Positions 16,337 through 64,000 of a stretch of DNA of 64,000 nucleotides are shown in pieces (position 1 is the stretch's first letter; every line of letters begins with the position of its first letter). The DNA comes from Coleophoma eucalyptorum. Its lineage: Eukaryota > Ascomycota > Leotiomycetes > Helotiales > Dermateaceae. The stretch is from the NCBI GenBank assembly GCA_026120035.1, contig JALRME010000012.1, forward strand, positions 1,071,293-1,135,292, given 5' to 3'. Position numbers and translations under genes: made by a program. The notes beneath the pieces are model-generated. The model ran no database searches, was not told the origin of the DNA, and saw nothing but the letters and a program-made list of their open reading frames with translations.

Positions 16337-16770
16337 CTACCAGTTGCCTTTATGTTTCCAAGAGCTCACTCTACCGTCAACCAATAGATCTTGGCCAGTT
16401 ATCCAGTTGCGGGTCGCGTGGTAGAGAAGCACTGGCTTTATCTCCTCTGGATTGCGCATCCGACTAAACATCGATTCTTCGTTGTATTGTTTTCGGAGAT
16501 CCGGGGAGACCTTTTCCGCCCGCAAAAACATATCCGTCTACATAGTGCCCGGGGAGAGGCGGTTGACTATGATTCGGTACTAAGTTAACTCCATAGCCAT
16601 AGGCTTCATATAGCCACATACAGCCACCTTGGATGTAGTATAGCAGGTGATCTGTTGCACATACATACTAATATGTGTCACAAAAAACCTGATAAAGATG
16701 ATAGAACCCATTGGAGCTGACTCAGCAGGCTTCGACTTACCCAGCTTCTCCCATTTTCGAACCATGGCGA
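16337..16770 (-). pseudogene. Short-chain dehydrogenase/reductase relic
   Basis: On the minus strand two frames together encode the second half of an SDR. There is a GSIIFI strand, a decayed stretch, the catalytic Tyr-x-x-x-Lys segment (YTTSKVAV), a helix KPMAMEL, then after a frame change R-IVNRLSPG and TDMF. A second frame carries MRNPEEIKPVLLY and the C-terminal NWITGQDLLVDG. Frame changes and missing segments show it is dead. It is unrelated in detail to the SDR relic near 8.5 kb, so it is a separate loss rather than a copy. Confidence 0.6.
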
Positions 16771-18044: not shown

Positions 18045-19532
18045 ATGCTACTCCTTCTTGCCCCATACACTTTATACGCGGCGGGTATTTGTTTATTCGT
18101 TTACTCTACCTTAAATTACTTGTACGATCCTAAAAGCCTAGGAAAGTTTCCATCTCCGTCTGTCGCCGGGCTCACTTCCTTCTGGCGCATCTGGCACAAC
18201 CTAAATCGAAGGCATTATGCAGTAATAGATGCTGCTCATAAGCGCTTCGGCAGCCATGTTCGAATCGCACCTGATCATATCTCTATTTTGGATCCAGAAG
18301 CTGCCTATCAAGTATATGGCCATGGCGCAAACATGCTTAAAGGGCTATGGTACAATGCTGGAGCTGGTGCCCACCGACACCTTGCCGACGCACGAAACAA
18401 ATTGGAACACCAGAGAAAGCGCAAGATGTTTGCTCATGTCTTCGCTGCGAAGACCGTGGTGTCGTTTGAACCTCTCCTCGTCGACACTATTCAAGTTTTT
18501 ATGAAGCAGCTTGATGAACGCGAAAAAAGTGGCACAGAGGTCGACATGAGGCTAATGTTGAATTATTTCACGATCGATCTTTTCGGTGATCTCCTCTACG
18601 GCAGTAAGCTTGGCTGTCTATCCCGTGGTGACGATCTGCTCGATGCCGAGACAAGGGATGGTGTTGTATACAAGGTTCCCTTCATCCAGTCTCTTTTAGA
18701 TGTAACCGTTATTAACACCGCTATTGGGTTATTACCTTCGGTGATGCCATTTACAAAGAAATTATTCAAGAACCATCCATACAAAAAGAAAGGCGCCGAC
18801 TGGGAAAACATCGTCTATCACAACACCAAGACGCGAATGCAGAAGGAAAACCGCGACGATCTGTTCAGCAAACTCCTGAAGAACAGCAAAGGAGAAGAGA
18901 TGAACCTTTCTCTCGGTGAAATCATTGCTGAGTGTTCTGTCATGATGAATGCGGGAACAGAGACCACAGCTGCTTCGATGACGAACACAACATATTTTCT
19001 ATACACCCATCCCAGAGTACTCGCTAAGCTACGAGCTGAAATAGATGCTGCGATTCCCGGGGATGGAATTTTGGCATATGAAGTTGCTTCAAGTCTACCC
19101 TATCTGCGCGCATGTATCGAGGAGTCTCTCCGACTTCGACCGCCGAATGCATTTGGCCTTCCACGACTAGTTCCTCCTGGTGGAAGGGTTATCGCAGGCC
19201 AATTCATTCCAGAAGGCGTGACAGTTTCTGTGCCGACGTACTCGCTCCTCAGAGACGAAAATGTTTTCGAGAACGCCTCGGAATATGACCCAGACCGATG
19301 GATGACCGAAGACCAAGAGAAGAAGCATCGCATGATGAACAGCCACCTTCCTTTCAGCACTGGGCCCCGGGCGTGCATAGGAAGAAATATTGCATACTTT
19401 GAGCAGATCGTTGTCATTGCTATGATTGTCAAGTTCTATGACTGCATCGTGCCGGAGGGGTTCAAGCTAGAAATTCAGGAGCGATTTAACTCAAACGTTG
19501 GAAATCTTCTTGTTGGGATTCAACGCCGTTGA
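18045..19532 (+). CDS. Cytochrome P450 monooxygenase
   Basis: Intronless, 495 residues. A single N-terminal membrane anchor (LLLLAPYTLYAAGICLFVY) is followed by a Pro-containing hinge (FPSPSVAG). The I-helix oxygen-binding motif AGTETT starts at residue 303, the K-helix ExxR is Glu360-Arg363, a DPDRW segment follows, and the haem loop FSTGPRACIGR carries the ligand Cys444. All hallmark residues are present. The N-terminal and YGHGANMLKG regions remind me of the benzoate-4-monooxygenase-like fungal P450s (CYP53 neighbourhood), but I cannot place it firmly. It sits convergent to the A-T-TE synthetase about 1.3 kb away, so a tailoring role in that pathway is plausible but unproven. Lack of introns is unusual beside its multi-exon neighbours. 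Confidence 0.9.
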   Translation: MLLLLAPYTLYAAGICLFVYSTLNYLYDPKSLGKFPSPSVAGLTSFWRIWHNLNRRHYAVIDAAHKRFGSHVRIAPDHISILDPEAAYQVYGHGANMLKGLWYNAGAGAHRHLADARNKLEHQRKRKMFAHVFAAKTVVSFEPLLVDTIQVFMKQLDEREKSGTEVDMRLMLNYFTIDLFGDLLYGSKLGCLSRGDDLLDAETRDGVVYKVPFIQSLLDVTVINTAIGLLPSVMPFTKKLFKNHPYKKKGADWENIVYHNTKTRMQKENRDDLFSKLLKNSKGEEMNLSLGEIIAECSVMMNAGTETTAASMTNTTYFLYTHPRVLAKLRAEIDAAIPGDGILAYEVASSLPYLRACIEESLRLRPPNAFGLPRLVPPGGRVIAGQFIPEGVTVSVPTYSLLRDENVFENASEYDPDRWMTEDQEKKHRMMNSHLPFSTGPRACIGRNIAYFEQIVVIAMIVKFYDCIVPEGFKLEIQERFNSNVGNLLVGIQRR

Positions 19533-19808
19533 TTAACGCAGGTTATTTGTACTTGGGTTAATTGTAGGTTATTCGAATACTACGTGTTACTTAAATATAT
19601 TGTCAGTAAGGCCCAATGGTGCCGATATGCCTATGAACGCATGTCGAGGAGGCCGCGATGAAAAGTTATATACTGAGGGAAGCGGCTGCTAGATCAAATA
19701 TTTGATATCCATCCATAGTAACAGCTTTGAATCAATCGTACGCTTCGCCATCCTAAAATCACTACTATATTAAAGATCCAACTTTAAAATTAACAAAAGA
19801 ATATCAAA

Positions 19809-20044
19809 ATGGTAGGACTACTTGGAGGCGGTAGAAAAAACAACAACAACAGGGGCACCGGTGGTGGTCTCCTTAGAGGGTAAATTATATATTTTATTTT
19901 TGAACTATTAGTATAATATATCCGAATAACAACTAACTTAATTTCACGTAGACTCTTAGGTATAGTTGATGATACAATCAAGGGTCTCCCAATCGTCGGC
20001 GCAATCACCTCTCCTCTATGTAAGAACATGACCTGCTCAGAATA
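19809..20044 (+). CDS. Small Gly/Asn-rich hydrophobic peptide gene, 3' end replaced by repeat
   Basis: Exon 1 (19809-19879) encodes MVGLLGGGRK followed by an Asn run and a Gly-rich tail. An intron 19880-19951 (GTAAAT...CACGTAG with a CTAAC branch site) joins exon 2, which continues LLGIVDDTIKGLPIVGAITSPL in frame. The reading then enters TGTAAGAAC at 20019, which is the first base of a repeat also found near 30.4 and 31.5 kb, and stops at 20042-20044. Splicing at GTAAGA (20020) would also stop at once. The peptide (46 to 54 residues) resembles short fungal proteins of unknown function that begin with Gly-rich turns. Its original C-terminus was probably lost to the insertion. Whether it is expressed is unknown. 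Confidence 0.4.
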
Positions 20045-20295
20045 GACAATTGGATAATCCAGACATGTGTCATGTGACCAAGCATATTTCATGTGACCCA
20101 GAGGATAGTAGGATAAGCGAGTATGAGCAGAGTCGGAGGGGTTTCGGACCCAGGAAGTATATAGAGGGACATGTCAGGGAAATTGGTTTCTTTCCTCTCT
20201 TCTCTTTTTATCTTTTTTATGTCTTTCGTACGAGACCTATAGGATTCAGTCAATATAAGGTTATTATGCTCCCAAACACCTCTATCCTGCCATTG
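20019..20295 (+). repeat. Repeat family A, copy 1 (LTR-like, ~280 bp)
   Basis: Starts TGTAAGAAC and contains CAATTGGATAATCC, GCGAGTATGAGCAGAGTCGG, AGGGGTTTCGGACC and TCTTTCCTCTCTTCTCTTTT, ending at GATCAAACCTGT. The same blocks occur in the same order at 31462-31742, and inverted at 30086-30364. Length, TG start and a pyrimidine-rich tract suggest a solo LTR. No target-site duplication was convincing. Confidence 0.7.
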
Positions 20296-20842
20296 ATCAA
20301 ACCTGTACCGATGCAGACATCAAGCTGGTCAATAAAATCACCGACTACTACATCTCGCAATTCCCGGACGATATATCTAGCTGTGATTTTGGCCACCTAC
20401 GACTATACCAATCAAAACATTCTAGCAAAAGTAAAGAAAGTCGATCCTAAGAGCATTTTCTGCCTCAGCCAACTAGCTTGACATCATGGGAAGGCGTCGA
20501 CTTAATCCAAGTGACTATAAAGATTATCTGATATCTATTAGCCTCGAGTGTTATGAGTTTTGCAAAGCTGCCGTGAATTTGCATTACCAAGGAGGCTACT
20601 TTACTCGCAATTCTGACCAAATATTTTTGTTGACTCGTCTTGCCTCGCTCTTTTCGATTGACTTGGCCAATGCTTCCTTGCTTACAACCCCTTTCCAAGT
20701 AATCTCCTCGCCTGCTATAAGTAAAATGATTTTGGGCCACTTTTCAAAGTCAATATTAAAAGGTAACAAGTAAAATTTGATCGATCAACTAGTGAACCAT
20801 CTAGATTAATGAAGAAACAAATGTTGGATATCCTAACATCAT
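20296..20842. other. Downstream flank of repeat; no supported gene
   Basis: Open frames exist (for example 20486-20773) but none carries a recognisable motif. It may hold decayed coding sequence displaced by the repeat insertion. Confidence 0.25.
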
Positions 20843-23800
20843 TCAGATCCCTCGCTCCCTTAGCACTGCCCGTAGCTTCTCCGCAAAGCTTACTACGAAC
20901 TCTGGGTCTAGCATCGTATAGTGAGCCCCTCCCACATCATGGAAGCGGACATCTCCCCTCACGAAGTCCTTCCACGCCGACAATTTATTATCGACCCAGT
21001 CTTTTCTATCCTTGGCGACATGGCTCAATGGATCGGCCACAAAAACATCCATGCACTTAACATTTCCACAAGGCTCGTAGTCGACGGCCATACCCTGCAT
21101 TTTGGCTGCGAGTCCCACCCATACTAGGTAGTATTCTTCACTAAGGCCGAGCTCGTCCCAACGCTTCTGGTCGCAATACGACTTCAGATAGCGGATACCA
21201 TCGAGGCGACGGTTCTCTTTCTCGAATGCACAGAGAATTGGCTTATGAAAGAGACAGTCTGACTCGTCCATCAGACCGATGAAGTAAAACAGGTGGGTAA
21301 CGCACTCGTCCCAAACGAGCTCGCGCATACGTGACTTGATATGCGGCGGCAGGTTCCAACTACCGCAGTAGCGTACTTCGTCTCCCGCACTCTCAAGCAG
21401 CTTCGATACCTCGAACGCAATCATGCCACCAAACGAGTAACCAGCGATGGCATACGGCCCTTGCGGCTGTCTCTTCTTGATGGCGGAACGATACGTTTCA
21501 AATACCTCTTCAAATGACTCGAAGGGCGTCTCACCCTCAGTGGCATTAAATCCCCTGGCGCGCAAGGCGTAAATAGGACGGTCAGTTAAGCGGTAGGCTA
21601 GATTTATAAAGACAAGGATTTCGCCAACACCAGGATGGATCAGCCAGAGGGCTGGCTTGTTTCCGTGGGGCTGGAGGCATACCACAGGATCGTACTCATG
21701 CATCCCATTGGTGGCTCCCGCATATGTCGTCAAGCCCCTGACCGTGGGGTAATTTAGAAGGTCGGTTAGGCGCACTTGCTTGGATAGCTTCAGCTTCTTG
21801 TTAAGATTCTGTATAATTGCCACGAGATCCATTGATGTAGCCCCCATCGAAAGCATTGAATCGTTCACAGAAAAATCGTCCCCAGCTGATATCTCGAGCT
21901 GTTCCCGAATAATATCTAGAATAGCGGCCTCCTCTGTCGACCTTGGCTCACCTCGCGTCTTCTGGCGATGTCTTTTGATGGCATCGTTATTGAGAATCTG
22001 CTGGTCTGCGAATTTTCCATCTTCTAGAGCGGCCTTTAGCTTGCCTCGGGATAGCTTACCCAAAGTTGACTTGGGCAAGTCTACAACACGCAACGGTACT
22101 ACGTTAGGCCGGGACTGGGTATGCATGCTTGTGATGCGCACAATACTATTCTATACAATCATTGAGAGTAAGTACTGGATGCCATCAGGTATCTAGGATA
22201 AGTTAACTAACCTGCGTCTCAAACCGGGCCTCGTCGTCGCCTTCCTCATACGAAGGAAGGTAGAGCACTGTGACTACTTCGGTATCTTCAGAGGCTTTGC
22301 GCGTGCTGAAACAACAGAAGTAGCTTGGTGTTGCGTTAGGGATTCCAGCCTGCTCAAGGGCTGCATCAAGTTCGTGTGGGAGGTACTTTACGCCGTTAAT
22401 ATTGATGACTTCCTTGGTGCGCCCGTCGAGGTGTAGATAGCCGCTCTTGTCGATGTAAGCCAGATCGCCCGTGCGGAACCAACCATCGCTGGTGAAAGCC
22501 TCAGCTGTGGCCACATCATTGTTATAGTATCCTTTGAATACTGCATCACCTGTCAGCTCCAGGCTACCCCGTTCCCCGGGCTTAACTTCGCCAACTAAAT
22601 GGTCAATAGAAGTGATGCGCATTTGCACGCCTGGCATACAGTCTCCAACCGAGCAAAACTCGAGATGTTCTTTACAGTCGTAGGTGGGGCATTGTGTGTT
22701 GAATATGCACCCGGCACAGGTCTCTGTCATTCCAAACCCGGGCTTGAAGACATCTTTGGGCGCGCCATACTTGTTTAAAAGAGACTGTAGTGCAACACAG
22801 ACCTCTGTAACATTAGCCTCGCCTCCTGTATCCAGGTGAAGCCCCTGCAGGCTAACTACCGGATCCAAGGTGCTCGTTCTGCCAGATTCGAGCTGCCTAC
22901 GCAACTTGGCTAGCATGAAGTTTGGTGCGAAACTACGCGATACTCGGTGGCGGCTAATTAGATTCAGGAACTGTACCGGATCAGACACAATATCGGCCGC
23001 TGGAACCTGGATCTGTGAGACGCCCGATATGATGGCGAATATGTGGCATTGGACAAGGTTTGCAACGTGATCCATATGCACCCATGAGAGGTACGGGTTG
23101 TTTGGATATAGGAGATTTGCAGTCTCCGCCTTGCCACGACAAGCAATAAGCACTTGATGGTGGGTCAATGGTACAGCTTTCGCGTTGCCGCTGCTTCCAG
23201 ATGTGAGCATGATAGCCGCTAGATCAGAGCTTGATATCTTGAAAGCTTTGGGCTTTGATTCTGTAGCAGGTTGCAGAGCCTCAATGTCTTCTATAGAGCA
23301 CGTTTCGATACAGGATTCCCTAGTCTGCTCCCTAAAAGGGCCAAGAAGAGATTGTCGAGTGAGACACAGCGGTCCGTTGAGCATACGGCGAAGATGCTCT
23401 AGGTGTTTCTTCTGGTCCTGCAGATTCTGATTGAACATGCCAGGTCCGGTGACGGCTGGAACTGCGCCAGCCAACAAAACAGACCAGTACCAGATCATAC
23501 TATCCAGGGCATTGTCGAAGTGTACAAGTACAACAGAGCCATGTTTGAACTTAGATGGGGCGTACTGAAGGAGTTTGGCTTTGTTTACTTCCGCCAGATC
23601 TAGAAGCTCCTTGTACAAGAGTTGATGGGCTGCGCTGGGTTCGGTGATGCCGTTTGCTGAATAGGCGATGATGCCTTCAGTTTCGCTTTTCGCAGCATAT
23701 CTCAAGGCGTCTATAACATTGGAAGGGACATATTTTTCCTCTGGTGCGATTTCTGTAACTGTAACGACTACATCCGATTCAGACAACGATTTTCTGTCTA

Positions 23801-23861
23801 CGATAGCACCGTCCACCAATATAGTGGTTTCTGAAAGAGATTTTACAACTGCCATCCTCAT
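20843..23861 (-). CDS. NRPS-like A-T-TE synthetase (aryl-pyruvate quinone/furanone synthetase type)
   Basis: Two exons, 23861-22212 and 22150-20843, joined by a phase-0 intron (GTTAGT...GTATAG), giving 985 residues. The adenylation domain spans about 30-600: P-loop TSGSSG at 220-225, GMTETCAG at 377-384, TGD at 464-466 and the A10-type Lys582 in STLGK. The thiolation domain has its phosphopantetheine Ser656 in MGATSMDL. The thioesterase has GYSFGG with Ser789 and a late His960 in GGAHYTM. There is no condensation domain. The TE opens [18 protein letters not shown] and has a NLPPHIK segment, both as in fungal synthetases that dimerise two aryl-pyruvates to benzoquinones, furanones or butyrolactones (TdiA, AtrA, MicA family). 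Substrate (indole-, phenyl- or hydroxyphenylpyruvate) cannot be read safely. Followed upstream by an MDR reductase and a prenyltransferase, so a prenylated dimer is the likely product. Confidence 0.92.
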
Positions 23862-25088
23862 AAATTGTTGACAATAAAGAAAATTGTTCTGACGGTGGAT
23901 TTGGAGATGCAAGCCCAAGGGAGAGCCGCTCAAACAAATATTATAATATAATTCTACATGATAAGCTGATAATAAGCTTCAATGTGATACAGTACCCCAA
24001 GCCAACTGTCCGTATCTCTTGCTGATAATAAACCTGGACAGAGACACGTTTGAATAACCCTGTAACTCCACTTAACCCATATTTATGCATAAAGTATATT
24101 ATATTATTAACCCTAATCTGCTCCTACTGTTCCTTTCTCCTATCCCCTGGCATAATTTAGGCATTATAACTCCGAGCTATCGGCAAAATTAATATTCTAA
24201 CCATTCTCATCCACTTTTGAACTATATAGCCAAGTCTTCTGAAAAGTTTTTCAAAATGCTACTAAAGAGAGCGGAAATCCCCATTAGGAGTGATATTATT
24301 AGAGTTTGAAGCTAATAACACATATTCCATAGAATAAAAAGGGGTGGTTGGAGGGTATAATAGATCTTTTTATTTATCGATGAACTTTCGAACAGAAAAT
24401 TTTGATTTTTTAGCAATCGAATTACCTTTTTAGATATCCGAATTGTACACTTGATTATATTTTGAAGGAAGGTTTCGAAATTGGTCCTTATATTTAAAGA
24501 TAATCATCGGTTTCGTCCCCTGTTTTTATGCCCCTGGCTGAGCTTCAGGTTTATAAAATCCTACATTCGCAACTTTAGGTATTACCGACAATGTTCCATG
24601 CCTACCCCCCCTAAAGCCCACTATTCTTCATAAACAGGCAAGGACTTGTCCCGATATCCAATATTCTTCACGGTCCTTCTATCGGCATATCCGACTTTTA
24701 TGGAAATTGCTGAAAACGATAAAATGAGTTCTGATCCTAAAATAAAAATTCCGGTCTTTGTTATCCCGTCTTTGTTTGCTTATAAGCAGTATTGAGTAAG
24801 TAGCAGCGTATTAATATTAAACAAAATCATATGATCATAAGCGAGAAGTGTACATACTCCCTCAATTTCATACTCAGAAAGAATTGAATGCGTTCTACAA
24901 CGCCACATATCCTGTAATTGAAGTTGTTCGGAGATTTATACGATATGAAAAATTACCATGTATTTTATGTTAGAGCTTTTCTGGAATTACAATACACTTT
25001 GAGGAGAAATGAAATATATGTCTAGCCATCCACTGGATCTATACTCATGAAGTGATGAATAGCTTTAAGCGGCGGTGATACAAGTTAT
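23862..25088. promoter_or_regulatory. Promoter region of the A-T-TE synthetase
   Basis: 1.2 kb very AT-rich gap between the synthetase start and the 3' end of the MDR gene. No coding signal is seen. It must hold the synthetase promoter; no clear operator was recognised. Confidence 0.35.
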
Positions 25089-26135
25089 TTACGGGATCAA
25101 CACAAGCCTCTTATTCTTAGCATCCACGGTATCCCAGACAGACTGTACGTCTGCCATTGGTGCAGTGAAGACATCATCAGGTCTTTTGATCGCAGCTGCT
25201 GTAGCCACTAAGCCAGCCGTCTCTCTCTTGATCTCCTGCTTACTCCAAGCTCCCATCCCTGATCCTGTGATGTAAAGCTGCTTCTTATTGAGCAAGCTCG
25301 AGGGCACCACAATATTGTCTTCACCAGCAAGGTCTCCCACATGGATGTATTGCAAATTTTCTCCTGTCTCAATCTCGGCAGTTTGCATAACTGCCACGGC
25401 TGCACGCCCCCCGACATAATCCAGTACAATATGGACTGGTCCGATACTTGGAGGTAAGGTGAAGGGCTCTCGCAGCAATACGTAGTCGTCCAGTCCATCT
25501 ACTTGAGCGAGTGTTTCCTCACTACGTGCCATGCCCACCACACGTGCGGCGCCCAGAGAGCGTGCTACAGCTACTGCGGCCCGGCCACTGGTACCAGTCA
25601 CGCCCATAATAAGAACGGTGCGGCCTTTACAGCCCCCTATAGAACGGCATTGCAGAGCCATCCAGCTACTGCTTACGGGGTTGACGAGTGCCGCGACTGC
25701 AACAGGGTCGGTGCCTGGCTCCAGCTTTATGATCTGGCTGCGATCAACATTAGCCCGCTCAGCAAACAGCGGCGCACTTCCTGCGGGACCGATGGTAATG
25801 AAGTATAAGTCACCTGTCGCTTCATCAAGTCCCACGCCGTCCATGCTAGGGTCGAATGGCAGTTGTGCATTCAAGGCGCTGGAGTGCTTGCCAGCGGCCC
25901 GATATTGCACCACTCGTGGTATTCCAACAGCCATAACCTTGAGCTGGCGTTGCGTTGGCGACGGAGGTGGCAGGTCAGGTACATCTAAGTACTGCGGAGG
26001 CGAGCCCCAAGACATGACACGAGCGGCCTTCATTACTAATGATTGAGATTGGTGGAATCCAGCTCTTTGTTGAACCGAAAATGCTGACAATGATCGATTG
26101 ATTTTTTTGGAGAGGTTTTTGGCTAGGCGTGGCAT
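25089..26135 (-). CDS. MDR-family NAD(P)H quinone/enoyl reductase
   Basis: Intronless, 348 residues. It starts with a basic, Ser-rich leader (about 35 residues) before the usual MKAARVM-type MDR start, so it may carry an organelle targeting peptide or use the internal Met at 35. The GroES-like half has MAVGIPRVVQYRAAGKH. The Rossmann half has GVTGTSGRAAVAVARSLGA with an alanine-type nucleotide loop. No structural zinc Cys cluster is visible, pointing to the zinc-free quinone-reductase branch. It lies upstream of the A-T-TE synthetase on the same strand and is divergent from the prenyltransferase. In the terrequinone pathway an MDR-like reductase (TdiC) reduces the quinone before prenylation, so an equivalent role here is a reasonable inference. 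Confidence 0.85.
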   Translation of the reverse strand: MPRLAKNLSKKINRSLSAFSVQQRAGFHQSQSLVMKAARVMSWGSPPQYLDVPDLPPPSPTQRQLKVMAVGIPRVVQYRAAGKHSSALNAQLPFDPSMDGVGLDEATGDLYFITIGPAGSAPLFAERANVDRSQIIKLEPGTDPVAVAALVNPVSSSWMALQCRSIGGCKGRTVLIMGVTGTSGRAAVAVARSLGAARVVGMARSEETLAQVDGLDDYVLLREPFTLPPSIGPVHIVLDYVGGRAAVAVMQTAEIETGENLQYIHVGDLAGEDNIVVPSSLLNKKQLYITGSGMGAWSKQEIKRETAGLVATAAAIKRPDDVFTAPMADVQSVWDTVDAKNKRLVLIP

Positions 26136-27701
26136 AGTAGGTATTGATTGTAAAGCCGTCCTTGGAACGAACAGATTAAATAATCGGAAAAAATTATGTC
26201 CTTTGAACTGAGTTCAAAATAAAGCTCTACGTCGTATAGAACACCTGAGATAGCTACTTACGTAGAAAGTTACAGAGCGCTAGGCGGCATGTAAGATACA
26301 GTCATGAACAGAGCTTATAAGTTCCCCGCGGGCCCGGAGATTTGGATTAGTAACCTACATTATATTGTACGTGGCTATCTTAGGAATTTGGTCTTGAGAT
26401 CCTAGAAAAAGGATGAATCAGACTAGGTCCTAAATTAGGACAGTTTCTGCCCTCTCCACAATCCCAACACCTGCCTATCGTAATCTAAAAGATTATAGAC
26501 GCCCCTAGTATTGATATGTCGAGTAATAGAATCGAAACAATTTCAAAGAGAATAAGTATTAAAGTTCGACTCTCAATTTTATCGTCATTGAACGCGTTAT
26601 CTTTAAGCTACTAAAATCTTATTAAATTAGAAAGTAAATGAAGTAGTTACTTGCTACTAGGCCTAATGCCAAGCACACAGCGATGCAAAGGGCGAGATTT
26701 CCTTTCCCTTCATCAATGAAGCGGTCAATACCTACCTAGCCCTAGTATGGCCTTCCTCTTAAGGTTTATGGAGTATCTGCTGATGGAAATCATATTTAAA
26801 ACGTACTAGTAATACCTCTTCTTTTAGGTGCCGCCGGTACGGACATTTGAGGAGGGGCAAGCGTATTTACACCCACAAGTGGTGCCAAGAGACGCTTAGG
26901 ACTGCACGAAAGTCTAAAACCGAGGGAATATACGAATCCGAACTAAAAAGTAGGCAAGGGGCATATGCCAAGGCTTATTGATTCTTTAGCACTACCAGGA
27001 TAAAATAGATTTAGGCGAAGGCCTACGAATCTACTATATCGGAGAAATAACGGGCTTTTAGAAAAGATAAGGAAAACTACCTTGCCGAGAGCTTATTACT
27101 ATCTCTGCTGCCGAGTAGGATAACAACTTAGTTCATGTTCTGTTTTCCCCGAAGTCGCTAAAAGTCACTCAAGTATATCTAAAGTTCAGGACCCCTAATA
27201 AAGTTCCGTTACAACTTCGGAATTGGAAAAACATATGTGTTAATTTAGAAATCAATATGTGCGAATGTTTCGAAGATCAACTGAAGCTAATGCTAGATAT
27301 CTATAGAAGGATCAGATACCAAAGTTTGCTTTTCTAGCAGCTAAGTGGATAAGCTGGTAGTATGTTAACTTAACCTTATGTGGAACACGGTTCACTGAGT
27401 ACGAAGTCCGCACTTGACACTTATGCGGCAAAAGCGTTACAAGATAACATGAGTCACCAGAGTGGATCGATATATGTCTAAAATGATTCTCAATCATGCA
27501 ATCATGCTTCGCCGTATCGGGTACGAGAAATAGGATAGTTGAAAAAGCGGAAGGATATCTGCTTTAGTTACATGAGCTATACTTACATATAAATAACAGC
27601 TGGGCTGTTATAACTGTGAGCTGGAGACAACATAAAACATTATTTTCAAGTTTTCCGTCTTTCTATAGCCAAGTCTCATTCGTAACCCTCAACATCCAAA
27701 C
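26136..27701. promoter_or_regulatory. Divergent intergenic region between reductase and prenyltransferase
   Basis: 1.57 kb between head-to-head genes. A TATA-like TATAAATA at 27588-27595 lies about 105 bp before the prenyltransferase ATG. The middle (about 26500-27250) shows decayed, stop-rich coding-like text that I could not assign. Confidence 0.4.
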
Positions 27702-29112
27702 ATGGCTTCTCCAAGTGCTGCTCTACCCGCTCAAATCGATGCCGAACTGAATGCAGAAGTAGTAAAGAAGTCTGCGCAAGTATTCTGGTCTCAATATATG
27801 CGCTGCGGTATGGGCGCATTATTTGTATCAAGCGGAACGTACACGCCATCCGAGCAAGCCTCACACTTGAATTTCCTTAGCGAGGTTGTTGCACCAGTTC
27901 TCGGACCACTCCCATCTGAGCCTCATCCCCAGTATACTATGCCATATGTTGGTGCTCCCTTGGAATTCAGCCTCAACTTAACATCATCCGGTGCGGCGAA
28001 GGCTCGCATAGGTTTTGAGGTCGTAGGGCCTTATGACCGACCAGCTGATGACCCGTTCAGTGAAGAGTTATCGCGGATGACGCTAAGGAAAATGGCCCAG
28101 TCCGTAAATGGAGACACGAGATGGATGGAATGTCTTATGTCGTCATTGTTCCTATCACCGTCGGAAACCGAGCTTGCCATGTCTAGGGGCGTGTCGCCAT
28201 TTGCGCCTTCAAGTATGTGGGCCTTCGATTTCGAGGGCTCCAAGACGTCAATGAAGGCGTATTTTCCGGCTCATCGTAAGTCTGTGGCTACACTACGGCC
28301 GGATGCGGAACTCGTTTTTGAGGCATTGCGGGCTTTAAATCCCCTGGGATCCGAGCTTTCACCTTGCTTAGATCTCCTCACAGTGTAAGCAAGGAAACTG
28401 CCTTTGGCTGCCTAAGATCTCTTTTGCTTACATCTGATTGAAAACAGGTATCTCGATAATTGCCAAAATGGCGCTTTCATCACCCTCGTCGGCATTGATT
28501 GTGTGGACCCCAAGGACGCCCGAGTCAAGATCTATATACATGTCAATAGCAATTCTTGGGATACGGTGTACGACTTTATGACACTTGGCGGGCGAATGAC
28601 TGATGAAACCACGCTTAAAGGACTTGAGATTCTACGAACAATTTATCCAACATTGTTAGATGAGCAAGAGCTGCCAAGCGATTCATGGAGTAAGGCTAAC
28701 ACTATCAATGGTATACCCTTCACTGAGTTGCAATTCAGTGTTGAGATAGCACCTGGCAGGGCTGTGCCAGAAATCAAGCTCTATGTTCCCATGTGCCAGT
28801 ATTCGAGGAATTCCAAAGTACTTATAGAGAATTTTGAAGGTGCTCTCAAGACTTTGGGGCATGAATGGGGACACAGTGGCAAGTATATGTCGACTATGAA
28901 CTCATTCTTGTAAGTTCTTTGCCTCCACCGTACAGATTTTTACTCCGGCATCTATTCTGACATTTTATAGCAAAGAGAAAGAGTTCTGCGGTATAGGCTT
29001 TGTCACTTTCTCGTATTCAAAGAGAAAGGGAGCATATACTACAGCTTACCTTATGCTACCAACTGATAACGAGCAACAAGTACTTAAAGAAGATTCATTT
29101 ACGTACAACTAG
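27702..29112 (+). CDS. DMATS-type aromatic prenyltransferase
   Basis: Three exons (27702-28384, 28448-28909, 28971-29112) give 428 residues in frame, the usual length for the family. The fold signature is visible as repeated beta-strand motifs with basic and Tyr residues that hold the diphosphate in ABBA prenyltransferases: R102 in RIGFEV, K185 in KAYFPA, K255 in KIYIHV, K338 in KLYVPM and a final YTTAYL. Glu88 in GAPLEFSLN matches the substrate-NH-binding Glu of indole prenyltransferases. The early QASHLNFLSEVVAPVLGP helix is also typical. Expected reaction: transfer of dimethylallyl from DMAPP to an aromatic (indole or tyrosine-like) substrate, in the cytosol. Divergent from an MDR reductase and next to an A-T-TE synthetase, so it probably prenylates that enzyme's product, as TdiB does. 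Confidence 0.9.
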
Positions 29113-30085: not shown

Positions 30086-30364
30086 CAGGTGAATCAAAGG
30101 CAGGATAGAGGTGTTTGGGAGCACAATAACCTTATATTGATCCGAATCTTATAGGTCTGGTACGAAGGACACAAAAAATATAAGAAGGAAAAGAGAAGAA
30201 AAAATCTAAGTTCCATAACAAGTTCCCTTTACATGCTTCCCAGGTCCGAAACCCCTCCGACTCTGCTCATACTCGCTTATGCAAACTGTCCTGTGGTCAC
30301 GTGACATATGTCCAATGTCCTGTATTATCCAATTGTTCAGTCTGGGTAGGTTAGGTTCTTACAT
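30086..30364 (-). repeat. Repeat family A, copy 2 (inverted)
   Basis: Reverse complement of the repeat at 20019: TTCTTACAT at its right end mirrors the TGTAAGAAC start, with GACTCTGCTCATACTCGCTTA and the AGAGAAGAAAAAATC purine tract in the expected order. It faces copy 3, 1.1 kb away, in inverted orientation. Confidence 0.7.
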
Positions 30365-31007
30365 AGAACTCCTTTTCTTACTCCTGAAGGCGTTAATTTT
30401 TGGCCTATAGGAATTAAGTCTCCTCAAGAAGAGCCATCTAGTAGGAGGTAAGGTCCTTTGAAGCCTTCGTATCGGCTACCAATAGGAATATATCTAGCGC
30501 TACTACGGTAGCCCGGACCTCTCCTTCCTTCTTATATACCTAAAGAGCCATGAACTCTTCCTCTACGAACCAAGGTAGCTATTGAGTATAAGCTAAGTCG
30601 AAGGGGTTTCGAGATTAGAAAGAAGAACTTACTAGAACGTACGTAGCATTCTACTGTACACAATAGGTATATCATAATTATAGTCCCTATAGACCTTCAT
30701 ACGGTATAGGCACTATATATAGTAGACTCAGTAGACACCCGGGAGGGTACTGACGGGAATAGGGATAGGCATAGTACTATACTTATGATCAGCGAGACCG
30801 AAACCCCTACGAAAACCCCTCGACTATAAACCTACGTTGCTTGATTGATTGATTGATTGTCTATATAAGTTAGTACCTAAACAACAAGCCTAGAGGCATA
30901 CGTACGATTTATGATTTTCAGGAAGCCAAAGAAAGAAAGAGAGAAAGCTAGGAAGAAATTTCTTGGCCTACATCTATCTACTGCTATTGTTTAAAATCGA
31001 TAATACT
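30365..31007. other. Decayed sequence between inverted repeat copies
   Basis: No supported gene. Contains a short TTGA-unit microsatellite at about 30839-30858 and stop-rich text likely derived from a mobile element. Confidence 0.3.
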
Positions 31008-31330
31008 GTTGGAATATCGATATATCTACCACCTGCACGCGAGGTAACATCGTTATACCTCATGTAGGTATTGGTATATCGCTACTCCACCTAAAGGTGT
31101 ATAGAGTTGGAATATCGCTATACTACTTGCTTGTTCCCGTGTTTGCGCTCAGGCGCAAACACTACATATGACTGTATTACTACGGAGGTCGAATCGATAC
31201 CCAGAAGGGGTATTTATAAGACCTCTACCACACTCACTTAGAAGAATCATCTATGTTTTTACCTTACCATTTTGACCTGTCTATTACAGCTACAGTTGAA
31301 ATAAGAGGTATACAGATCAACCAACAAATA
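31008..31330 (+). repeat. Repeat family B, copy 1 (LTR-like)
   Basis: Starts near TGTTGGAATATCG. The block from about 31161 (ACTACATATGACTGTATTAC) to about 31300 is almost identical, in reverse complement, to the right end of the window (63890-64000 and a little inward). It includes ACTTAGAAGAATCATCTATG and ATTACAGCTACAGTTGAAAT. Related shorter matches occur near 35790-35950. TG start and conserved terminal blocks suggest an LTR. Confidence 0.7.
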
Positions 31331-31461
31331 CTAAGACTCTTAGTATTATCCTTCATATCAATAGAAATTAATAATACCAAGTAGGATTTCTTTATTCCAT
31401 CCTAAAAACCTACCGTATCGCCTCCAACACTATTTGAGGACAAACAGTCACGAAAGAAGGA

Positions 31462-31742
31462 GGGTAATATAAGAACCTAACCTGGCTAGACTGAATAATT
31501 AGATAATCCAAGACATTGGACATATGTTACGTGACCCTAGGACAGTATGCATAAGCGAGTATGAGTAGAGTCGGAGGGGTTTCGGACCTAGGAAGCATAT
31601 AAGAGGGATATGTCAGGGAAATTGGTTTCTTTCCTCTCTTCTCTTTTTATCTTTTTTGTGTCCTTCGTACGAGACCTATAAGATTCAGTCAATATAAGGT
31701 TATTGTGCTCCCAAACACCTCTATCCTGCCATTGATCAAACC
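31462..31742 (+). repeat. Repeat family A, copy 3
   Basis: Direct-orientation copy of the 20019 repeat. It shares GCGAGTATGAGTAGAGTCGG, AGGGGTTTCGGACC, the TCTTTCCTCTCTTCTCTTTT tract and CCATTGATCAAACCTGT, with scattered substitutions. Together with copy 1 it brackets the synthetase/reductase/prenyltransferase genes. Confidence 0.75.
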
Positions 31743-32852
31743 TGTGTCCATACACCAATGGCCTATGCTCCTCCTTGCTGGCTCATACGAAACCCACCTG
31801 GTTGACAAAGGCGCCTTTCAAGAACTCGATACCGTTTCTTTGCTTAAGCCTCATACAAAATGTACTATTCGATCTTCTTTGGAAAATATTTCTTAGTCGG
31901 TTTCAAACGCTTACCATGTCTCTTGGTATGGTCGTGGTATAGGTTTTGTAGACCTTCCTACCAATATTATTCGAGGCAGCCAGCGAATTGAGCAGATTCC
32001 AGTACGTGTTATCCCCGATATGAAATGTATAGCAGCTTCTCCGGAATTATTAAGTGGGTTATGATGACAGCTCAGCACTGTTGGTCATGGATAGTTTGAT
32101 AGCGATTTTCCTTGGGGAATATAATCCATTTTGGGGTATAGGTGGCACTAGAAACATAAATCCAAGCCAATAAATTAATGACCGTCAAAGCTGATTAGAT
32201 TATGAGGATCCAAATAGATCTAAGACATATCTTTTCTCGTGTTTGTATCTAATTAAGTTCGTAACACTTCGTATTATAAAGTAATTTAAACCTCTCTTTC
32301 CTTAGTTGTGAGACTTAGAGTGCTAAATAACTCTATTAATTATACCTCATTTTGACACCAAAACCTATATATACACCTATTTGATCCTACTAGGGAGGAG
32401 GCTGAATTACATAGTTTTAAACATGAACTGCGCAGTCTTACAATTATGTTAGCAAAGGGTTCAAGAATAAATATAAGTTAGAAAGCTATTAAGATACAAG
32501 GCAGGTCTTTTGCTATAATTAATAAAAGAAAGGGTGTTACTTCTATTCTCTGGAATTCCGACTTTAGGCCACCAAATGCAATGATGTAAATAGTTCTAGA
32601 AGCATGCGTAGATAGCCTAAGCGAGCGGTTGAGGCTATATAAAAACACCGAGTTAGTCTGCCGAATTAAGTAGCCAAAACTGACGTTGTTGACTTATTAT
32701 ATTATTTTATAGTCTTATTTTTATAGTTTTTGCATAAGTCAAAACTTGATTTGGTAAACCTAAAATCATCACTCTAGCTCCTGATCTTAGATTAAGTTTT
32801 TAGACTAAAAACAATGTATTTTATAGTCTAAATGCCATAGATATTCTGAGAT
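31743..32852. other. Gene-free AT-rich region
   Basis: A short frame after the repeat (to about 32060) contains GIGFVDLPTNIIRGSQR-like text but has in-frame stops and no family I recognise. The rest is AT-rich without coding signal. Confidence 0.3.
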
Positions 32853-34133
32853 CTATTGTTTGCTCTCCACCTTAGGGTAGGGCGCCCAAGTGTACTGATT
32901 AGGCAGCTTTATTTCAACCCCCAGTCTTGCAGCAGTTTTTAAAACCCACTCCGGTTCCCTTAAGAACTGCCTCCCAACCAACACTACATCTGCCTTTGCT
33001 AATGTTCCCTGCTCGTCCAGGATTTCAATTGTGCCAGGAGCTTCATCTAAAATGTCCTTTGCCTGCTCAGCCTCCGTGATCGTTCCAACAGCTCCAATAA
33101 GAAGGTTCTTAACGCCGGCTTTGTGAAGCTCTGCTCTAATCCTGCCTGCGATTCCAACCTGGAAACCGTTAAACGGGGTGATCTTCTGTTTCTCGTTGTT
33201 TCCTCCAGAGCTGACGTCTAGGAAATCAACTCCTAGTCCAGGTAACATTTTTGCCAGCCGAATAGTCTGTTCCACATCCCAGCTTTCATTGGCCTGCTCT
33301 TCCATCCACTCGGTTGCACTAACTCTTACCAACAATGGCATGCCGCTGGGTATAACGCCCCGAATCGCCTCAATGACCTCTACTAGCAACCTGGTTCGGT
33401 TCTCAAAACCCCCACCGTATTTGTCAACTCGGCGATTGCTGATAGGACTCAAGAAACTACACAGCAGGTACCCATGTGCAGCATGGATTTCAATGACATC
33501 GATTCCAGCTTGCACGGCCCGCTTCGCACTGTCCCGGAAGGCATCGACAGAGTCGCGAATCTCTTGCTCGGACATCTCCCTTGGCATGCCCTCTGCTTCG
33601 CTCCATTGAATTGCACTTGGACCCATAATATCATCCTCCCATCCACCGGCATCTTTACGGGCCAAAGCCTTCTCTCCCCTCTTCACCAGCCATGGTGCCA
33701 AGGTACTAGCTTTGCGCCCAGCATGTCCTAGCTGGACGCCGATTTTCTGTCCCTGGCTGTGAACTAAGTCGGCTACGCGCTTAAGGGGCGCGATTTGAGA
33801 GTCCTCCCAGAGCCCTAAATCTTCGGGAGAAATTCGACCGTTAGCAAGGACAGCTGTAGACTCCATAATGGTAAGGCCGGCGCCGCGAAAAGCTAGGCCA
33901 CCCACATGCATCACGTGGAAATCCGTCGCATTCCCATCCTGCCCCGAGTACATGCACATTGGGGCGACCCATGCACGGTTTTGAAATGTCATGGAGCGGA
34001 TTTTAAGAGGCTTAAATAGGTTTGGGACATTTTCCTGGTCCTTTAATATAGCGGTTCCCGCAGGAGGGTCTTGGTAAGGAGTGAAGTAAGGTGCATTAGG
34101 CGCAGGTTCATTTCTAAGAGAGATAGAGCCCAT
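32853..34133 (-). CDS. Old yellow enzyme family NAD(P)H:flavin oxidoreductase (YqjM-like)
   Basis: Intronless, 426 residues. The FMN-binding TIM barrel reads NLFKPLKIRSMTFQNRAWVAPMCMYS at the start, then FHVMHVGGLAFRGAGLTIME, GVQLGHAGRK, the catalytic-site segment IEIHAAHGYLL, and SNRRVDKYGGGFENRTR. It ends with ADVVLVGRQFLREPEW. The Cys in PMCMYS and the arginine-rich loop are typical of the YqjM branch. Expected role: NAD(P)H-dependent reduction of activated C=C bonds, cytosolic. It lies about 3.7 kb beyond the prenyltransferase across a repeat-rich gap, so membership in the metabolite locus is possible but not shown. Fully intact. Confidence 0.92.
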   Translation of the reverse strand: MGSISLRNEPAPNAPYFTPYQDPPAGTAILKDQENVPNLFKPLKIRSMTFQNRAWVAPMCMYSGQDGNATDFHVMHVGGLAFRGAGLTIMESTAVLANGRISPEDLGLWEDSQIAPLKRVADLVHSQGQKIGVQLGHAGRKASTLAPWLVKRGEKALARKDAGGWEDDIMGPSAIQWSEAEGMPREMSEQEIRDSVDAFRDSAKRAVQAGIDVIEIHAAHGYLLCSFLSPISNRRVDKYGGGFENRTRLLVEVIEAIRGVIPSGMPLLVRVSATEWMEEQANESWDVEQTIRLAKMLPGLGVDFLDVSSGGNNEKQKITPFNGFQVGIAGRIRAELHKAGVKNLLIGAVGTITEAEQAKDILDEAPGTIEILDEQGTLAKADVVLVGRQFLREPEWVLKTAARLGVEIKLPNQYTWAPYPKVESKQ

Positions 34134-63829: not shown

Positions 63830-64000
63830 GTTAGTGTTTGTTGATCTATATACCTTTTATTTCAACTGTAGCTGTAATAGACAGGTCAAAACGGCAAGGT
63901 AAAAACATAGATGATTCTTCTAAGTGAGTGTGGTGGAGGTCTTATAAATACCCCTTCTGGGTATCGATTCGACCTCCGTAGTAATACAGTCATATGTAGT
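63830..64000 (-). repeat. Repeat family B, copy 2 (cut by window end)
   Basis: The reverse complement of 63890-64000 matches 31161-31290 almost base for base (ACTACATATGACTGTATTAC, GGGGTATTTATAAGACCTC, ACTTAGAAGAATCATCTATG), with weaker match inward to about 63830. The 5' part of the repeat lies beyond the window. Confidence 0.75.

Follow-up and report, generated by a model that had tools for sequence, protein, structure and literature searches.

A gene group of Coleophoma eucalyptorum, located in a stretch of 64,000 nucleotides (contig JALRME010000012.1, positions 1,071,293 to 1,135,292, hereafter the window), most likely has as its core a relative of the published terrequinone/asterriquinone clusters, judged from sequence comparison: a side branch of a known pathway family, without a nearby aminotransferase. 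The group contains a nonribosomal peptide synthetase-like (NRPS-like) enzyme with adenylation, thiolation and thioesterase domains (A-T-TE), a medium-chain dehydrogenase/reductase (MDR), a prenyltransferase of the DMATS family and, at its edge, a cytochrome P450. We consider it probable that this is a terrequinone-type biosynthetic core. In window coordinates, the genes and the feature of the reductase discussed below are:

18045-19532, + strand: cytochrome P450, 495 amino acids, intronless, frame intact
23861-20843, - strand: A-T-TE NRPS-like synthetase, 985 amino acids, exons 23861-22212 and 22150-20843 with one intron; TdiA-type, with Gln271, Asp344 and Gly375 (Q271/D344/G375)
26135-25089, - strand: MDR quinone-reductase-like protein, putatively of TdiC type, 348 amino acids; an inner Met at 26033 would give a 314-amino-acid form
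26034-26135, - strand: N-terminal extension of the reductase, 34 codons, mitochondrial-presequence-like by composition
27702-29112, + strand: DMATS-family aromatic prenyltransferase, 428 amino acids, exons 27702-28384, 28448-28909 and 28971-29112 with two introns

The original prediction had claimed exactly these four genes, and all four were found intact at these positions, in their reading frames and splice sites as well as in the carrier Ser and the thioesterase (TE) residues of the synthetase. The order in the cluster is synthetase-reductase-prenyltransferase, with the reductase (-) and DMATS (+) genes divergent and 1566 bp between them.

Relatives of the synthetase were taken from the 120 listed of 1759 significant matches, the scored sequences being the 7994 candidates that shared most words; rows 1-58 of the alignment are the nearest synthetases and rows 59-120 the next 62 listed relatives. 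The best match among those listed is P0001, with 74% identity, and identity to P0042, an A. terreus protein named TdiA, is 63.6%, compared with 39.8% to the second A-T-TE enzyme of the same genome. In a tree of the window protein and 35 of the 120 rows, the synthetase joins the TdiA-type rows, P0042 included, with support of 100/99 against P0053, P0056 and the outgroup. The same grouping is evident in single columns of the 120-row alignment. At residue 344, Asp is shared by 55 of rows 1-57, the exceptions being 53 and 56 with Gly, while row 58 is gapped there; rows 59-120 have Ala (39), Ile (8), Thr (5), Gly (4), Val (4), Phe (1) or Asn (1) and never Asp. The TE motif VADPLSHV is confined to the nearer group, with 44 of rows 1-58 carrying it and no row from 59 to 120, and Asp at residue 923 occurs in 50 of rows 1-57 versus 1 of the 62 more distant ones; in P0041, which the tree places among the nearest, this column holds Asn.

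We take the residue-344 column, from its motif, to be position 5 of the substrate code, with code positions in GrsA numbering. For quinone synthetases, Ile or Val at position 5 is described as going with phenylpyruvate and Asn with 4-hydroxyphenylpyruvate (PMC10316625). Asp344 is characteristic of the rows to which TdiA belongs and therefore favours a substrate of the indolepyruvate type. Both Asp344 and the TE motif match the TdiA-type rows, in a comparison that included no furanone synthetase of known product. The original prediction had allowed for a prenylated bis-indolyl- or bis-phenyl-quinone, a furanone or a butyrolactone; of this range, bis-phenyl quinones, furanones and butyrolactones appear less likely, because pocket and TE motif are in the state of the TdiA-type rows. 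As a separate observation, the second intact A-T-TE frame of this genome (L005, C34:85502-88483), 40% identical to that of the window, has Glu/Val/Gly in the columns of residues 271, 344 and 375; the published rule would make it a probable phenylpyruvate enzyme of the polyporic acid type.

The other two members of the trio were compared in the same way. The nearest listed relative of the reductase comes from Cytospora leucostoma (71%), and one reductase match is present in the genome. The reductase may be assigned to the TdiC type by the linkage of its relatives with TdiA-type synthetases, the comparison having included no sequence named TdiC. For the DMATS protein the nearest listed relative is P0121 of Cytospora paraplurivora (59%). 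A role as an indole-diterpene prenyltransferase was considered and rejected: TerF (33-34%) is the only match of named function among those listed, and it says nothing on the substrate because DMATS enzymes are in general this divergent (PMC3760044). A second DMATS gene of this genome, 33% identical to that of the window, lies at a different locus (C69, about 70286-78800; L023, L024), where the neighbours resemble, by eye, an NmrA-like protein, a UbiA-like prenyltransferase, a P450 and an epoxide hydrolase.

Linkage among the relatives was evaluated by counting two genes as lying on one contig when the length of their longest contig was equal, a proxy that can miss pairs and will rarely invent one. 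By this measure a reductase relative among the 120 listed appears to be on the same contig for 22 of the 58 nearest synthetases. Five DMATS relatives have a listed contig; two of them are apparently with a synthetase and one with a reductase. These are P0121, apparently with synthetase P0036; P0123 (45%), apparently with synthetase P0006 and with consecutive gene names; and P0122 (48%), apparently with reductase P0136, the gene names again consecutive. In Helicocarpus the DMATS gene has the reductase beside it, but the synthetase listed for this fungus lies on a different contig. The original prediction had named closest homologues in unrelated loci as evidence that would tell against a cluster, and this is not simply what was found, given 22 synthetase-reductase, 2 synthetase-DMATS and 1 DMATS-reductase pairs apparently on shared contigs. 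The parallel that it drew between the trio and TdiA, TdiC and a DMATS enzyme is borne out as far as families go, the synthetase falling in the TdiA-type and the reductase apparently in the TdiC-type family.

Within this family, alignment and tree place the synthetase on a distinct branch together with P0036 and P0041, and the reductase tree gives a concordant picture. His and Ser occupy the columns of residues 271 and 375 in 51 of the 55 Asp-bearing rows, whereas the window synthetase has Gln and Gly. The Gln/Gly pair is found also in P0036 (Cytospora paraplurivora), in P0041 and in P0058 (Diaporthe), which has a gap at the Asp column; Gln is combined with Ser in P0030 alone, and among the 62 rows from 59 to 120, 60 carry Gly at 375. 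The window synthetase, P0036 and P0041 group with support of 88/89 in the 35-row tree, and the same three-member branch is recovered at 95/93 after dropping columns 271, 344 and 375 (window and 29 of the 120 rows; P0030 and the distant outgroup rows of the 35-row tree were left out). The trees are of modest depth and one is a quick search. P0001, the closest by identity, has the ordinary residues, so that identity and tree disagree; the branches of P0036 and P0041 are longer. A placement of this branch outside the TdiA core (99 in the quick tree, 91/99 in the 35-row tree, both with full columns) is not claimed, its base being unresolved without the three columns. In the reductase tree (window and 50 of the 120 rows) the closest neighbour of the window protein is from Cytospora leucostoma, and both belong to a five-member group (98/82) that includes P0129; P0129 is apparently on one contig with synthetase P0041, again by equal size. 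Because the relatives of synthetase, reductase and DMATS all point the same way, these data suggest that the trio has travelled together.

From these assignments a pathway can be proposed. General aromatic aminotransferases would supply indole-3-pyruvate, which the synthetase would activate and then load on its carrier domain; the TE domain, as clade, pocket Asp and TE motif suggest, would couple two units into a bis-indolyl dihydroxybenzoquinone. By analogy with TdiC the MDR reductase would convert the quinone to the hydroquinone, and the DMATS enzyme, by analogy with TdiB, would then prenylate the indole or the hydroquinone ring. The P450, if it is a member, might oxidise the product, which is a guess. 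The steps of synthetase, reductase and prenyltransferase follow TdiA, TdiC and TdiB as they are presented in PMC12105029 and PMC9979454.

Several points weigh against a terrequinone-type core, among them its missing partners. A search of the window, for which the original prediction had already noted the lack, and of its vicinity yielded no aminotransferase, either among the 28 of 37 window open reading frames (ORFs) scanned or in a genome-wide search with PF00155 in which 9 of 48 candidates were scored. The nearest match, on the same contig (C5:986945-988084), lies 83 kb outside the window and about 104 kb from the synthetase and was not counted as a cluster member. Nor was a TdiE counterpart seen, with no methyltransferase-like Pfam match in the same 28 of 37 ORFs, a scan that could miss short exons. 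In the terrequinone-type clusters of Hypoxylaceae the core is described as synthetase, aminotransferase, reductase and prenyltransferase (PMC8403587); in other A-T-TE clusters the dedicated aminotransferase is often unclustered, and in another pathway the deletion of ucdG is reported to have lowered the product only slightly (PMC12105029). The absence of the aminotransferase therefore need not stop the pathway. Because no dedicated aminotransferase was found near it, the locus is classed as a variant and not as a full five-gene tdi cluster. On the same side of the balance, equating the residue-344 column with the published substrate-linked position is our own assignment, and the Ala that the majority of ordinary relatives carry at this column falls outside the published Ile/Val/Asn rule; Gln271 and Gly375 depart from the His/Ser of 51 of the 55 Asp-bearing rows; the DMATS comparison set was without a TdiB sequence, the likeness to TdiB being at family level; and relatives appear to share contigs by equal contig sizes, not by maps.

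The two departing residues also bear on the possibility that the architecture is the same and the substrate another, the Q/D/G pocket taking phenylpyruvate, 4-hydroxyphenylpyruvate or a modified indolepyruvate and leading to a prenylated terphenylquinone or a substituted bis-indolylquinone. Gly375 is the usual state of rows 59-120, P0036 and P0041 share the change and stay on one branch with the window protein even without the three columns, the rule is a weak guide here (Ile, Val or Asn in 13 of rows 59-120 versus Ala in 39), and prenylated terphenyl pathways exist, as in the ucd cluster (PMC12105029). However, Asp344 is kept, the phenyl-substrate state of Ile, Val or Asn (PMC10316625) is not present, and identity is far closer to TdiA-type enzymes, and we judge a different substrate to be rather improbable. 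Somewhat less so, though still doubtful, is that synthetase and reductase form one pathway and that the DMATS enzyme, the P450 or both serve otherwise or are chance neighbours. The arrangement in Helicocarpus agrees with this, as does the P450, which lies in tail-to-tail orientation to the synthetase with a repeat copy between them and has its nearest own-genome paralogue at 38%. Against it, for the DMATS gene, are its divergent arrangement with the reductase and the three of five relatives with a listed contig that are apparently near a synthetase or reductase, while for the P450 nothing decisive speaks against it. A third possibility is that the genes are silent and decaying, left over in a contig end rich in repeats. 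The repeat copies on both sides, what looks by eye like a dehydrogenase relic and a contig end within a repeat would fit this, but the four frames and their splice sites are undamaged, as are the carrier Ser and the TE residues, which makes decay very improbable. A terrequinone-type core is thus the reading that we prefer.

The reductase carries an unexpected feature, a basic and amphipathic N-terminal extension. It has 6 Lys/Arg and no Asp/Glu, with an 18-residue stretch of hydrophobic moment 0.71, as would be expected if it were a mitochondrial presequence followed by a second start codon. The inner Met is the exact annotated start in 83 of the 120 listed reductase relatives, and 6 further fragments fall short of it; upstream of it, at least 20 residues are annotated in 26 relatives and 1-19 in 5. 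All 26 extended relatives keep the inner Met, 19 have no acidic residue in the extension, 13 have FH near its end like the window protein, and 8 are apparently linked to a synthetase, while in three (P0175, P0206, P0224) the extension is acidic and different. The last 14 residues of the window extension, right-aligned, share 3-7 positions with ten hand-picked relatives, and the local score against shuffles gave p <= 0.05 in 6 of these ten and not in 4. Presequence-like extensions are present in a part of the relatives, and these belong to different fungal classes. As for the 83 short models, either the proteins really lack the extension or the annotation has left it out; in the former case the extension would be a minority feature. 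We suggest tentatively, considering it possible but not probable, that two in-frame starts give two forms of the reductase: a short cytosolic one, providing the hydroquinone for prenylation, and a long one sent to mitochondria, which would protect the producer itself by disarming redox-cycling bis-indolylquinone at its respiratory chain. If the extension is a true presequence, a pathway enzyme would also have a mitochondrial post. On tdiC and mitochondria, the tdi-gene passages of an A. nidulans paper are silent on location (PMC3821154).

The P450 is a possible cluster member. It is separated from the synthetase by 1310 bp, and no known class could be assigned to it, the matches to solved structures being generic (CYP3A4 the best) and the NCBIfam matches far below their cut-offs; it may resemble CYP53 benzoate hydroxylases. 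The repeat copies around the genes are:

20035-20306, + strand: dispersed repeat copy, between P450 and synthetase
30174-31754: more copies of the same family, beyond the prenyltransferase, partly inverted

These copies flank the trio; a repeat-bracketed mobile unit was nevertheless rejected, as at least 46 matches to the family in the genome, some being pieces of one copy, make such flanking unremarkable. A shared promoter motif was also searched for in the 1000 bp upstream of the four genes. One 8-mer is present in all four stretches (0.3 expected) and 37 in three (8.3 expected), with 10 9-mers in three (0.6 expected), but this is no evidence of co-regulation because the control was a mononucleotide shuffle and the reductase and DMATS stretches have 434 bp in common.

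Farther out, the P450 is separated from a sortilin/BNR-type (xyloglucanase-like) gene by what looks, by eye, like the decayed C-terminal part of a short-chain dehydrogenase, interrupted by in-frame stops (about 16340-16640, - strand). Just past the repeat block, at 32853-34133 (-), an intact NADH:flavin oxidoreductase of the old-yellow-enzyme type is encoded, unlikely to be a further tailoring enzyme. Positions 63835-64000 and 31161-31326 are repeat arms 96% complementary to each other; the contig breaks off inside the repeat and no TTAGGG/CCCTAA is present in its last 2 kb, which gives the end of the assembly the appearance of a break within a repeat.

The locus adds an uncharacterised branch to the family that makes terrequinone A, described as antitumour (PMC9979454), and cochliodinol, described as antimicrobial (PMC11088548), and its Q/D/G residues are a natural experiment on indolepyruvate selectivity. 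The tdi cluster of Aspergillus nidulans (terrequinone A, tdiA-tdiE) resembles it in the adjoining TdiA-type synthetase, TdiC-type reductase and DMATS gene; in contrast, the window has no nearby TdiD aminotransferase, no TdiE was seen, a P450 is at the edge and residues 271 and 375 differ. Among the terrequinone-type clusters of Hypoxylaceae (trq, cld; truncaquinone, cochliodinol), the window synthetase is 68.7% identical to P0014 of Annulohypoxylon truncatum, which is apparently on one contig with reductase P0197. Unlike the window, P0014 has His/Asp/Ser, and the core as published for these clusters and for the cochliodinol cluster of Chaetomium has an aminotransferase (PMC8403587, PMC11088548). 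The difference from the known cluster that the original prediction noted is weaker than claimed, given the likeness to these clusters and an aminotransferase that is often unclustered. The uscandidusin (ucd) cluster is similar in having an A-T-TE enzyme and a quinone-reducing step, then prenylation and hydroxylation, but its product is a terphenyl derived from 4-hydroxyphenylpyruvate, UcdB is described as a reductive dehydratase and there are methylation steps (PMC12105029). One literature search for Cytospora NRPS-like enzymes and prenyltransferases gave no result; in our comparison the uncharacterised pair P0036 and P0121 of Cytospora paraplurivora has the nearest listed DMATS, the same Q/D/G residues and the same synthetase branch as the window.

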